From assembly GCF_022811665.1 (NCBI RefSeq), contig NZ_CP094529.1, forward strand, positions 2,046,001 through 2,110,000: a DNA stretch of 64,000 bases, written 5' to 3'. A program made the translations under genes and the position numbers. The DNA comes from Chryseobacterium oryzae (GTDB taxonomy: Bacteria; Bacteroidota; Bacteroidia; Flavobacteriales; Weeksellaceae). The notes below the pieces were generated by a model. That model was given only the letters and a program-made list of their open reading frames with translations, was not told the origin of the DNA and made no database searches. Shown piece by piece: positions 34,295 to 38,036 of this stretch (positions within the stretch are counted from its first letter, which is position 1; each line of letters opens with the position of its first letter).

Positions 34295-34465
34295 TGTATC
34301 TTTTGTGAACAGAGTATTTTAAATAATCGTTAAATATAACTAAAGGACAACAAAAGAAAAAACGGTTAACCGTATAACAAGTATTTTTTTTAAAATTAAT
34401 TTGAAAGACGCTATTGCTCGCTTTACTTTATTTCTCTGAAATGCTAGTCGATCAATTTTAGTGTA

Positions 34466-34497
34466 AAAAAAATACCAACTCTCGTCGGTATTTTTAA
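34466..34497 (-). terminator. Terminator behind the broken HTH gene
   Basis: AAAAATACC and GGTATTTTT form a stem with an 11-nt loop, followed on the minus strand by TTTTTTTT. It lies 14 bp past the HTH stop codon, so that gene was its own unit, separate from hsdM. Confidence 0.78.
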
Positions 34498-34510
34498 ATA
34501 TTGTACTTTT

Positions 34511-34732
34511 TTAAAGTCCAGCCATCTCAAAGAATTTAGACAACTTAATATTCTTTGCCTCGCAAATTCTCATTATAGTAATTAAACTAATTTGATAATT
34601 GGTATCTTCTCTAATTCTTCTTACAGTCTTCTAGTCAATATTATTTTCAGTTGCAAATTGACTGTTATTATTCCTTGGAATAACCCATTTATCCCTTATA
34701 AATTCAACAATCTTTCTATTTGCAATTTTCAT
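34511..34732 (-). pseudogene. XRE-like HTH regulator interrupted by an in-frame TAG
   Basis: Translating the minus strand from the ATG at 34730-34732 gives 33 residues beginning MKIANRKIVEFIRDKW. A TAG follows (34631-34633), and then, without frame change, 39 residues KTVRRIREDTNYQIS..SKFFEMAGL to a TAA. The whole reads as one small helix-turn-helix regulator in which one codon, probably Glu or another residue before KTVRRI, became a stop. A terminator follows and a 10-bp inverted repeat lies upstream. It may once have controlled the restriction operon or the sigma/dead-Cas12f locus. A suppressed stop or restart cannot be excluded. Confidence 0.7.
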
Positions 34733-34761
34733 AAAAGCAAATAAAAGTGATATTGCGTAAA

Positions 34762-34787
34762 ATAATTCGGACTAAAATCCGAATTAT
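34762..34787. promoter_or_regulatory. Perfect 10-bp inverted repeat, operator candidate
   Basis: ATAATTCGGA-CTAAAA-TCCGAATTAT lies 29 bp upstream of the broken HTH gene and 17 bp before the promoter of the structured RNA. There is no T-run, so an operator is more likely than a terminator. Confidence 0.55.
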
Positions 34788-34803
34788 CCAATTTTTTTAT
34801 ATA

Positions 34804-34835
34804 TTTGTAAAATAAGTTACTGCTTTGTAACTTTG
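34804..34835 (+). promoter_or_regulatory. Consensus Bacteroidota promoter of the structured RNA and sigma/dead-Cas12f genes
   Basis: TTTG (34804-34807), 20 nt, then TAACTTTG (34828-34835): a full match to TTTG-N20-TAnnTTTG. The predicted transcript start, about 34842, is just before the structured RNA. TATATTTG at 34800-34807 is a second possible -7. Confidence 0.75.
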
Positions 34836-34875
34836 CGATAGTTCAAAGAAATATAGAAGCTATTGCTTAGATTCT

Positions 34876-34985
34876 CGACTAGAAAACTGGCACTTTTCAA
34901 AAAGCGATGAGATGATAAGTAAATGTGCCCACGACTTCGGCGTGGGCTCACTTATCGTTGCTTGGTATGCCAGTACCTCTAGTCG
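34876..34985 (+). ncRNA. Highly structured RNA upstream of the sigma/dead-Cas12f pair (guide-RNA scaffold candidate)
   Basis: Five nested helices are visible: CGACTAG (34876-34882) with CTAGTCG (34979-34985); ACTGGCA (34886-34892) with TGCCAGT (34968-34974); AGCGAT with GTTGCT (G-U pairs); GATAAGT (34914-34920) with ACTTATC (34950-34956); GCCCACG (34927-34933) with CGTGGGC (34941-34947). No U-tract follows directly, so it is not a simple terminator. A consensus promoter points into it. About 17 nt later there is a T-rich TTTTCTTTT (35005-35013 region), so a short spacer-like stretch would lie at the 3' end. It could be the guide scaffold for the dead Cas12f (inference), or a cis-acting leader. 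Confidence 0.65.
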
Positions 34986-35113
34986 GTAAGTTGAGTTCCA
35001 CGCCTTTTCTTTTGTGCAAGATATAATAAACTAAGGAATATAGTAAAGAGTAGAATTCACCTTATTAATTTAAGCAGTTCCTTCCAGCAATAATTAGCTA
35101 AAATCCGCTGCTT

Positions 35114-35929
35114 ATGAAAAGAACAAACTCTTTACCCAAAAAATTAACCAATTTTCAGTTGTACGAACTGCTGAAAAAAGGTAGTCCAATTGCTCTGGAA
35201 TACATTCATCTGCGCTACAAAAGACTTCTTTTCTGGTCTGGATGGCAGGTGCTGAAGGATGATTTCATAGTGGACACTATTGTTCAGGATACCTTTCTCA
35301 AATTGTGGCTGCACCGCGATACCATTGAATCGCCTAATCACATTACCGGCTTTTTACGGTTTGTGATGAAAAGGGATTGTATTGCGTATGTCACTGCGCC
35401 AAGGAATAAATTCACGCGCTTAATGGCTTCCCTTGACAGTTTTGAGAATTATCAGGAATATCTTGCAGGTTACGATCCTTTGAAAGATAAAGAGTATTTA
35501 CATAGCCAGGAATCAGACCAAAAGAGATTCGATGAAATCACAAAGGTTTTACCCGTACTGAACCCCAAAAGGAAACACCTGATAGAACTTTGCCTAGAAT
35601 ACGGCTTTCAGTACAAACCCATCGCAGAAGCTATGGGAAGCAGCGTGACAGGCATCAGCACGGAGGTGAGCAAAGCCATACATGATCTTCGGAAAATTCT
35701 TAAGGTAACTACTTTTGAGCAGCCAGAAGAAAAAGCTTTTGACAAAGAAGAGCAGTTAGAAAAACTCAGCAGTCAGCAGCTCGAGATTATTAAAAGACGG
35801 TTTAAACAGAAGTCTTCATTTGCGGTCATTGCACAAGAACTTAAACTTTCTGAAAAGGAAGTGCATCGGGAATTTCTTTACGCCTATCAGCATCTGCAAA
35901 ATCAAAACCTATCTGAAATACTCCTTTGA
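35114..35929 (+). CDS. ECF-type sigma factor with C-terminal extension, partner of dead Cas12f
   Basis: Sigma-70 family ECF sigma factor of 271 residues. Region 2 spans about 12-85 (KGSPIALEYIHLRYKRLLFW..DTIVQDTFLKLWLHRD). Region 4 lies at about 145-195 (LPVLNPKRKHLIEL..YKPIAEAMGSSVTGISTEVSKAI). A further 70 residues carry a second region-4-like HTH (about 210-262; SFAVIAQELKLSEKEVHREF), which ordinary ECF sigmas lack. No anti-sigma gene or FecR-like partner is present. Instead the next gene starts 1 nt after its stop (TGA-A-ATG), so it is translationally coupled to a nuclease-dead Cas12f/TnpB homologue. RNA-guided recruitment of RNA polymerase is the best reading (inference from architecture). 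Confidence 0.85.
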   Translation: MKRTNSLPKKLTNFQLYELLKKGSPIALEYIHLRYKRLLFWSGWQVLKDDFIVDTIVQDTFLKLWLHRDTIESPNHITGFLRFVMKRDCIAYVTAPRNKFTRLMASLDSFENYQEYLAGYDPLKDKEYLHSQESDQKRFDEITKVLPVLNPKRKHLIELCLEYGFQYKPIAEAMGSSVTGISTEVSKAIHDLRKILKVTTFEQPEEKAFDKEEQLEKLSSQQLEIIKRRFKQKSSFAVIAQELKLSEKEVHREFLYAYQHLQNQNLSEILL

Positions 35930-35930
35930 A

Positions 35931-37025
35931 ATGGAAAAGTCTACGATAACCTTAACACGGAAAATTCAGCTGGTGATTGATGTTCCATCTGAGGATAAAA
36001 GCAAAATGTGGGAAAAGCTCTATAGGTATCAGAACCGCTGTTTCAGGGCGGCTAATCTAATTGTTTCCCATTTGTACGTACAGGAAATGATCAAGGATTT
36101 CTTTTACCTCACTGAAGAAATCCAATATAAATTAGTTGACGAAAAAAGAGATGAAATGGGAATCTTCAACCGTTCTAAAACAAATACAACTGCACGCATG
36201 GTCTTTGACCGTTTCAAAGGAGAGATCCCCACAGATATTCTGGGATGCTTAAACAATACAATTCAATCTACCTTTTCCAAAAACAAAGCCGACTACTGGC
36301 AGGGAACAAAATCACTGACAAACTTTAAAAAAGACATTCCTATTCCGCTTCCGGTCAAGTGCATCAGCAAAATGAAGTATGACCCTGAAAAGAAAGCGTT
36401 TACCTTCAATATGTTTGCGATTCCGGTCAAAACCTATTTAGGGAGAGATTTCTCCGATAAACATTTGGTACTGGAGCGGCTGTTAAGAGAAGAGATCAAG
36501 CAATGCAACTCACAAGTCCAGCTGAAAGACGGTAAAATATTTTGGCTATCTGTCTTTGAGTTTGAAAAGGAAAACCATGGCTTAAAACCAGAGATCATTG
36601 CCGAAGCATCTTTGTCTCTGGAACATCCCATCGTGGTAAAAGCCAACAATGTGCGAATGACTATTGGCTCAAAAGAGGAATTCCTCTACCGCAGGTTGGC
36701 GATTCAGGCGAGTAATAAAAGGATTCGAGCAGGAGTGGCTTACTCCCGTTCGGGAAATGGAACCAAACGGAAACAGAAGGCATTGCAAAAAACAGAGAAT
36801 TTGGAAAACCGTTTTGTGAGTCATCATCTCCATCTGTACAGTCGGCAGTTGATTGATTTCTGCATCCGACAGCAGGCGGGCACATTAATTCTTAAAGATC
36901 AGGAAGACAAAATAGGGATTGCAAAAGAACAGGAGTTTGTACTTCGTAATTGGAGCTATTATGAATTGCAGACAAAAATAAAATACAAAGCAGAAAAAGC
37001 CGGAATCGAATTGATTATCGGATAG
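35931..37025 (+). CDS. Nuclease-dead TnpB/Cas12f-like RNA-guided DNA-binding protein
   Basis: Protein of 364 residues, starting MEKSTITLTRKIQLVIDVP at the ATG 1 nt after the sigma stop. The C-terminal half keeps the TnpB/Cas12f backbone: IGSKEEFLYRRLAIQ, the Arg/Lys-rich bridge GNGTKRKQKALQ, ENRFVSHHLHLYSRQLIDFC, AGTLIL, and FVLRNWSYYELQTKIKYKAEKAGIEL. The RuvC residues are gone: the GVDLG-type Asp aligns with Ser227, the second-site Glu with Lys322, and the chain stops at LIIG before the zinc ribbon and third Asp. It should bind guide RNA and target DNA but not cut. Pairing with an ECF sigma matches reported RNA-guided transcription systems (recollection). Confidence 0.85.
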   Translation: MEKSTITLTRKIQLVIDVPSEDKSKMWEKLYRYQNRCFRAANLIVSHLYVQEMIKDFFYLTEEIQYKLVDEKRDEMGIFNRSKTNTTARMVFDRFKGEIPTDILGCLNNTIQSTFSKNKADYWQGTKSLTNFKKDIPIPLPVKCISKMKYDPEKKAFTFNMFAIPVKTYLGRDFSDKHLVLERLLREEIKQCNSQVQLKDGKIFWLSVFEFEKENHGLKPEIIAEASLSLEHPIVVKANNVRMTIGSKEEFLYRRLAIQASNKRIRAGVAYSRSGNGTKRKQKALQKTENLENRFVSHHLHLYSRQLIDFCIRQQAGTLILKDQEDKIGIAKEQEFVLRNWSYYELQTKIKYKAEKAGIELIIG

Positions 37026-37397
37026 CTAAAAAATGAGGGTGCTTGTAAACCCGTAGGGTGAGGTTTTGAACACTCACTAAATACTGGAATTAAATACTTT
37101 TTCCGGTGTATACAATGGCGTGGGTTTCTTTTTTCTAAAAAAAAGCATGAAATTAGAATAGTTGGTGGAGGATAGAAATAAAATTACAGAATAAATCATA
37201 TTCTTTAAAAAAACGAGTTCCAAAACAAAAAAAAACGAGTTCCGAAGTTTTTTCACCCTTTTCGCGGAAAAGGCAAGAGAGTCTAGGTAGTATAAAATGT
37301 AAATTTTGTACGTACAAAGACACATCTTGCTGTAAAGTTTTCAAAAGTCAAAATTTTATTTAGTCTACCTTAATTTAGACCAGTCGAATAGTTGATT
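37026..37397. other. Intergenic region after dead Cas12f
   Basis: 372 bp. The first 100 bp hold the possible guide region. GGCGTGG at 37117-37123 is the complement of CCACGCC at 34998-35004, upstream of the sigma gene. AAACGAGTTCC occurs twice (37211-37221 and 37232-37242). The rest is AT-rich without a supported gene. Confidence 0.4.
37036..37100 (+). ncRNA. Possible guide-RNA 3' region downstream of dead Cas12f
   Basis: Right after the stop, GGGT/ACCC pairs and a GTGAG (37058-37062) / CTCAC (37073-37077) stem around GTTTTGAACA are visible. They are followed by about 20 nt (37078-37097) and then TTTTT. In TnpB and Cas12f loci a guide commonly follows a terminal stem at this position, so 37078-37097 could be the guide. 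The evidence is positional and structural only, and no target was found in the window. Confidence 0.4.
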
Positions 37398-38036
37398 TTA
37401 ATCTAGGTTCGGTCTTTTAATTAGTGGAAGATTAGATAACGAAGAATTTCCATTAAAGTGTGAAACCTCAAGGGTATTCATATTTTTTTCAAGAGTAGAT
37501 TTCCAATTCAAAATAGGTCTTCCCAATGAATTTTTCCAATCTGCTTCTTCCCATTTCTGAAATTTTTGAATCAATAAATCATCTAGTTTTTCTGAATAGT
37601 CTTTTAAAGTTTTTGCAAAATCTATAAACTGTTTTAAGTTCGGATATTTTGAAAATGAGCTATTGGTATTAATTTCCGATTCCTCAATGGTTTTTAATTC
37701 ATCACTAGGTTTATCTATTGTTTCATAGGTATTTGGTGTTACTTTTGGCATTGGGTTTCCATTTAAAATAAAACGATTTGGAAAACCCTGATTTCTATTG
37801 TAATCCAAAAGTCCTAAAAGTTTGAGTTTGTTTTTTGCAGTGATGACCGTTTGCCTGGAAAGCCTAAGCTCTCTTGCAATTTGATAGTCTGATAGAACTA
37901 TTTCTTTTCGTGGATCTTCACATTTATATAGGATAAAAGTAAAAACAGCTATAGTATTTGCTCCGATTTTATTTTCTGAATTTAAATCAAACATTTTATC
38001 AAATAAGTTAATATCAAAAGTTTTTGAATTTTTCAT
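37398..38036 (-). CDS. Helix-turn-helix replication/transfer protein of the island
   Basis: Protein of 212 residues. The N-terminal 75 residues (IGANTIAVFTFILYKCEDP..VLSDYQIARELRLSRQTVITAKNKL) form a winged helix-turn-helix like those of replication initiators or DnaD-type proteins. The C-terminal part is charged and ends in a region rich in Trp/Lys (KWEEADWKNSLGRPILNWKSTLEKN), reminiscent of primosomal proteins. It overlaps the Toprim gene by 4 bp, so they form one unit. A role in replication of the excised island is inferred. Confidence 0.65.
   Translation of the reverse strand: MKNSKTFDINLFDKMFDLNSENKIGANTIAVFTFILYKCEDPRKEIVLSDYQIARELRLSRQTVITAKNKLKLLGLLDYNRNQGFPNRFILNGNPMPKVTPNTYETIDKPSDELKTIEESEINTNSSFSKYPNLKQFIDFAKTLKDYSEKLDDLLIQKFQKWEEADWKNSLGRPILNWKSTLEKNMNTLEVSHFNGNSSLSNLPLIKRPNLD

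Follow-up and report, generated by a model that had tools for sequence, protein, structure and literature searches.

A sigma factor gene and a gene for a Cas12f homologue adjoin each other at positions 35114 to 37025 of the stretch of Chryseobacterium oryzae DNA analysed here (64,000 nt, in the following called the window). This arrangement raises the question of whether the two products constitute an RNA-guided transcription system and, if so, which sites and genes their guide would address. We consider it probable that the pair is a chromosomal sigma-dCas12f system of this kind, acting at a structured leader which precedes both its own operon and susC-susD. The family as such is already known; what is added here are the guide, the target element and the genes belonging to it, and we do not claim that the targets are unpublished.

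The sigma-dCas12f gene pair and its relatives

The ECF-type sigma factor gene (35114..35929, plus strand) encodes 271 residues and the gene of the Cas12f homologue (35931..37025, plus strand; ATG at 35931, stop codon ending at 37025) encodes 364. Both reading frames are open and meet at TGA-A-ATG, i. e. with a spacing of 1 nt. In a Pfam scan, the sigma factor matched Sigma70_r4 (7.7e-10) and Sigma70_r4_2 (1.4e-08), both above the cut-offs, and Sigma70_r2 (1.4e-04), slightly below the cut-off; it possesses two region-4-like stretches (residues 140-188 and 215-252), the second one at the C end. For the Cas12f homologue, the Pfam scan gave no family above cut-off, and the NCBIfam match to guided_TnpB (4.6e-16) was below its cut-off. 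A phmmer comparison with PDB chains aligned its full length (residues 1-364) with 9n9c_A, named "Nuclease-deactivated Cas12f" (E 3.4e-158), a chain which also occurs in 9n9m, 9n9o, and 9n9q. Residues 16-262 of the sigma factor matched the "RpoE" chain of 9n9q (E 2.8e-74).

The protein aligns with active Cas12f (9nzr, 9nzo) over residues 83-361 (E 6e-39). In the alignment with 9nzr_A ("Cas12f Nuclease"), Ser227 is found opposite the aspartate of VGVDLG and Lys322 opposite the glutamate of QMERL, which we take to be the RuvC-I aspartate and the RuvC-II glutamate. The alignment ends at residue 416 of the 508 residues of 9nzr_A; the C-terminal part of the active enzyme, presumably zinc-ribbon and RuvC-III, is missing, and the intact RuvC triad of a CRISPR Cas12f/TnpB nuclease is absent. 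Among 51 dCas12f homologues, the first catalytic column contains serine in 44 and aspartate in 2 cases, and the second one contains glutamate in none (0/51). In further contrast to active Cas12f, no repeat-spacer array was found in 34300-37700, where only two short repeat families, A-rich or of two copies, occur.

Judged by its sequence, the pair is a further member of the known sigma-dCas12f family of PDB 9n9c/9n9m/9n9o/9n9q: both proteins are homologues of the solved ones, the RuvC residues are lost, and the sigma gene adjoins. The preliminary description, which had proposed a sigma factor spaced by 1 nt from a catalytically dead Cas12f homologue and an RNA-guided transcription system, thus named the right family. 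The solved complexes come from another species; here, the guide and candidate targets were read from the genome. Two preprints of 2025, by Hoffmann et al. and Xiao et al., reportedly describe a dCas12f-sigma complex of RNA-guided transcription. A second related group is TldR, which resembles sigma-dCas12f in its short guides and in regulating transcription; its members are repressors and are not known to have a sigma partner. Both are RuvC-dead TnpB relatives; in contrast to TldR, dCas12f is joined in an operon with a sigma gene here. PMC13418256 cites Wiegand et al. 2024 for TldR as RuvC-dead TnpB-like RNA-guided repressors.

The own genome contains one dCas12f copy. Close relatives were found at 26 loci (L001-L026) in Chryseobacterium and Epilithonimonas, and in 25 of them a sigma gene lies immediately upstream; therefore, the pairing is conserved and not due to chance. 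In the exception, L026, similarity is limited to dCas12f residues 252-364. The gene is present in 22 of 147 related genomes and in 8 of 395 genomes sampled across the phylum; at E <= 1e-40, it was detected in 69/301 genomes of the family of G513 and in 11/299 of the family of G240. Carriage of this subfamily by plasmids or phages was considered and rejected: the one plasmid and the one phage record encode TnpB-like proteins which share approximately 27% identity with the query across 70% of its length and thus fall outside this subfamily.

The genes flanking the pair are located on the minus strand, opposite to sigma-dCas12f, as had been noticed before. To the left are HsdR, KAP NTPase, HsdS, and HsdM (type I restriction), to the right Toprim, VapE-like, HTH_17, HipA-like, and integrase genes. 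The mobile defence island postulated earlier is real, with type I restriction and KAP NTPase genes to one side of the pair and genes of replication, HipA-like and integrase type to the other.

A predicted guide RNA downstream of dCas12f

A block directly 3' of the dCas12f gene is kept in the window and in L001-L026. From it, a guide RNA is predicted at 37035-37134 (plus strand), consisting of a scaffold with three hairpins (37035..37116, ending in TATACAAT) and a guide (37117..37134, GGCGTGGGTTTCTTTTTT) which starts with GGCGUGGG and whose T-run may double as transcription end. An alignment of the scaffold with distant relatives (48 sequences, 42 of them distinct) contains hairpins with covarying pairs and ends at ACAAC/T. 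In divergent loci, the variable part is the sequence past this end, which is constant within a lineage and differs between lineages. What emerges is a putative guide RNA made up of scaffold and 3' guide.

Among the Weeksellaceae-type guides listed, 28/28 start with GGCGTGGG followed by (C/T), and most Flavobacteriaceae guides read GCGTGG(G/A)CTCTCTTATTT. The guides of one sphingobacterial genus read GGCTCGCTT(A/G)T.., and the remaining lineages have yet other guide sequences. The scaffold filter was passed by 21 of the 48 loci of L105-L110 and L175-L216; in L178, L179, and L214 the scaffold is present further downstream of dCas12f, and in many of the remaining loci of this set, which failed the filter, there is no recognisable scaffold.

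Three other assignments were discarded. A guide consisting of ACTCACTAAATACTGGAATT right after TTTTGAAC is ruled out, as this stretch is a conserved scaffold hairpin in 27 loci and as the variable part begins past ACAAC/T in distant relatives. A two-piece RNA of tracrRNA and leader repeat is incompatible with the guides of L106 and others, which extend past GCGTGGGCTC. Finally, scattered genome matches of 88% to a piece of the scaffold are a different repeat and not additional guide RNAs.

A structured leader and its match to the guide

Upstream of the sigma gene, we identified a structured leader RNA of about 180 nt (34835..35013, plus strand) with two mutually exclusive folds. It closes with a terminator-like 3' arm, GAGTTCCACGCC (34993-35004), and a T-run (35005-35013), both on the plus strand. 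Folding of 34840-35113 gave a z value of -5.27 with respect to shuffles. Over 59 leaders, both folds are supported. In the arm fold, 99.1% of the cells are paired and 102 show a double change, compared to 26 in shuffles and no more than 19 when slid. The helix which joins the guide-matching strand to GAG..CCAYGCC has 97.6% paired cells and 21 double-change cells, compared to 8.3 in shuffles and no more than 3 when slid. Pairs changed on both sides number 6 in the arm fold (equalled by 72/500 shuffles) and 2 in the guide-strand helix (equalled by 378/500); only the cell counts and the scores of both folds exceed all shuffles. Wherever the 3' arm was found (58/59 leaders), there is a T-rich stretch behind it, with 6-11 T in 14 nt; this count has no control. 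In energy terms, the terminator-like fold was compared with the free minimum for 10 leaders: it reaches the minimum in 2 and lies 0.5-11.9 kcal/mol above it in the other 8 (7.7 in the window).

With its two folds and the T-rich stretch, the leader looks like an attenuator. As in Rfam attenuators and riboswitch-like leaders, there are two exclusive folds, one of them with a T-run; unlike those, the leader matches no Rfam family. The Rfam match to rli47 (E 0.072 at 34335-34433) lies outside the leader. Equally outside a leader, L217:742-874 (minus strand) contains a piece of a group-II-D1D4-4 intron, with 42.9 bits below the gathering score of 49.

Among the 147 related genomes, 75 contain the leader, namely 22/22 with dCas12f and 53/125 without it; therefore, its role is not tied to dCas12f alone. 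According to a manual count of the listed places, 19 of the 22 dCas12f-bearing relatives have at least one leader copy away from dCas12f. A covariance model built from 39 copies was applied to two sets of genomes which carry dCas12f but belong to other genera and families, and it detected the leader in 4/6 and 19/26 of them; G513 was counted in each set. Thus a widespread structured leader RNA, far commoner than dCas12f and without Rfam entry, is now exposed.

The candidate target of the guide lies within this leader. The first 8 nt of the guide, GGCGTGGG, occur twice in the 64-kb sequence: in the guide itself and at 34939 upstream of the sigma gene, where the site GGCGTGGGCTCACTTATC (34939..34956, plus strand) also forms the 5' arm of the terminator-like helix. 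The guide matches its own leader or the susCD leader in 8 exact nt and in 12/18 positions overall, or 16/18 with G-U pairs; 11/1000 shuffled guides equal the match to the own leader (single-letter shuffles, as in all guide-match and inverted-repeat controls). A 5' G is present at this site only if the guide start is taken as the second base. The genome search with the guide which had been suggested at the outset led to the own leader and the susCD leader (8 nt), whereas the longest exact match of the guide core GCGTGGGTTTC, at C1:3111032-3111042, is within a coding frame and not in a leader, and the reversed-pattern control also gave 1 match.

In 20 Weeksellaceae-type loci, the pair is accompanied by a complete leader; the 5' run of the match comprises 8-12 nt in 15 of these and 6 nt in 1. 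In 4/20, the leader is changed to GGCAAGGG and the guide GGCGTGGG no longer fits; these are the near-identical loci L014, L016, L018, and L020, in which the self-match is gone. In 6 of the 26 loci, the full leader is absent beside the pair. The match of the window's own guide is short and modest, and the case for the target rests on the relatives.

The Flavobacteriaceae loci L106 and L205-L216 were examined with the first 17 nt of their guides. In 6 of these 13 loci, 14-16/17 positions match at a site approximately 960-1020 nt upstream of dCas12f, whereas the second-best sites reach 11-13. When guides were compared with leaders of the same genome, 14/37 comparisons exceeded all 300 shuffled guides (13-15 of 15); two more were equalled by 1 in 300 shuffles and two by about 3 in 100. 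All 14 strongest matches, which are all outside Weeksellaceae, have a G just 5' of the site. A 5'-G target-adjacent motif is characteristic of sigma-dCas12f systems; in the window itself, it would apply only with the guide start at the second base. Altogether, a guide-leader match was found in 10/19 genomes tested, including G946 (15/17), with values up to 15/15 with 5' G. None was found in the other nine (G849, G916, G1062, G566, G956, G803, G771, G687, and G525). Of the three guides in G910, that of L216 has no leader match either; the L211 guide has a 16/17 self-copy just downstream, without 5' G, which was excluded from the match count. The putative guide of L200 in G687 starts with GAGTTCCAC and resembles the 3' arm of typical leaders; it has no significant match to the single weak leader of that genome.

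Such likeness might reflect an RNA motif shared by guide and leader, for example one recognized by a common binding protein, the true DNA targets being elsewhere. The GGCGTGGGCTC strand, near-invariant in leaders with or without dCas12f, would fit this explanation, as would the 9/19 genomes without a match. We nevertheless regard it as unlikely: two lineages use different registers of one element, the sphingobacterial guides (GGCTCGCTT...) being placed 5 nt further along the same leader element than GCGTGGGCTC..., and in G792 and G786 guides and leaders have lineage-specific letters in common.

Control might also operate at the RNA level. Since the guide has the same strand sequence as the 5' arm of this helix, the guide RNA could pair with GAGTTCCACGCC, the 3' arm, while the leader is being transcribed, and prevent termination; dCas12f would then be an RNA carrier and DNA targeting secondary. 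The preservation of the helix between guide strand and GAG..CCAYGCC, with its excess of double-change cells, and the T-rich stretch behind the 3' arm in 58/59 leaders are consistent with this mode. In contrast, guides match best in their 5' portion, which is how a Cas12-type seed behaves, and the matches end at the scaffold boundary; the 5' G accompanies all 14 strongest matches; and the G792 guide matches on (TCGTG) past the limits of the helix. These observations make control at the RNA level improbable.

Genes behind the leaders and proposed mode of action

A second leader copy in the own genome (C1:2263860-2264080, corresponding to L046:6861-7081, minus strand; 77% identical, E 3.6e-36) is followed after about 590 nt by a susC frame (999 aa) and then by susD (458 aa). 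The genes downstream were surveyed for 41 leader copies away from dCas12f, 29 from dCas12f-bearing genomes and 12 from others: 21 precede SusC-SusD, 3 protein X and then SusC, 16 protein X, and 1, at a contig end, neither. The SusCD operon usually extends to an S9-type peptidase gene, and DUF6520-like and MauE-like genes are often found on the opposite strand nearby. Protein X (about 180 aa; L150:3399-3935 and 18 more of the 41 loci) is a recurrent first gene after the leader; it matched no Pfam or NCBIfam family, and none of its PDB matches was better than E 0.17.

On the other side, the leader of the window is preceded by the box TATATTTG (34800..34807, plus strand), a -7 box of the Bacteroidota consensus type, and by the palindrome ATAATTCGGACTAAAATCCGAATTAT (34762..34787), a likely operator. 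TAnnTTTG is found near the start of 59/59 leaders (counted without control), and a perfect inverted repeat with arms of at least 6 is located ahead of the -7 box in 37/59, compared to 13.2 expected from shuffles. Upstream of 57/59 leaders (again counted without control), a divergent frame of 55 or more codons begins at a distance of 40-200 nt; HTH_3 was detected in 27 of 41 scanned proteins of this type. In the window, this gene is an Xre-like HTH remnant (34514..34732, minus strand) with one in-frame stop, and intact counterparts occupy the same place beside other leaders. Owing to this stop, the upstream promoter may be unrepressed in the strain.

Ten upstream proteins beside nine other leaders were chosen by eye as the first large frames past the HTH gene, and 7 of these have PADLOC matches: PDC-S49, DRT polymerase, type II methylase, PDC-M68B/LmuB-like, Aga-like, NucC-like, and a weak DUF3644. 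The defence neighbourhood therefore belongs to the HTH side of the leader and not to this locus alone. In L046, L117, L121, L145, L148, and L150, differing defence-type genes stand beside the HTH gene, as if the spot gathers defence cargo.

Starting from what the sequences establish, namely the family, the dead nuclease, the scaffold, the position of the guide and its match to leaders in several lineages, we propose the following course. The 3' end of the sigma-dcas12f transcript would yield the guide RNA, whose three-hairpin scaffold ends in ACAAC/T and is followed by the short guide. dCas12f would bind this RNA and open the DNA, forming an R-loop, at the conserved site within the leader; the sigma factor would bring RNA polymerase, and transcription would start downstream of the site. 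Recruitment of the polymerase and the switch-on are suggested by homology and by the 2025 preprints, in which the start reportedly lies a few dozen bases beyond the target site. At the leader ahead of sigma-dcas12f the result would be self-activation, and at leaders elsewhere ahead of susC-susD an activation of SusCD-type operons. With a start at that distance, the transcript would lack the 5' terminator arm and the HTH-controlled promoter would be circumvented; as the target is one arm of the terminator-like helix, such a start would also bypass the attenuator. RNA-guided initiation overriding an RNA attenuator is hinted at in this way. For natural sigma-dCas12f targets, a testable list results: one guide per genome and countable leader sites, located before the genes of the system itself and before SusCD-type uptake operons.

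A more comprehensive picture is possible, and we offer it tentatively. The leader may represent an undescribed family of two-state RNA attenuators of Bacteroidota, each copy with its own HTH repressor and changing defence genes. Sigma-dCas12f would be the RNA-guided override which restarts transcription past the terminator's 5' arm, so that neither the repressor nor the terminator takes effect, with the SusCD-peptidase operons and the system itself forming one regulon.

The site is downstream of the TATATTTG box and inside the transcribed leader, which would also suit the opposite effect, namely that dCas12f-sigma on its own leader blocks transcription from the upstream promoter, as in TldR. 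RuvC-dead TnpB-like RNA-guided repressors are described in PMC13418256; the sigma gene directly upstream in 25/26 loci and the PDB entry with dCas12f and RpoE together point instead to polymerase recruitment and make repression very unlikely.

A minor observation concerns two arrays of a hairpin-like unit of about 150 nt in the own genome (C1:1732537-1765572, plus strand; C1:1098954-1124606, minus strand; L034-L037), with a spacing of approximately 1-10 kb; inspected by eye, they are perhaps an integron-type cassette array.
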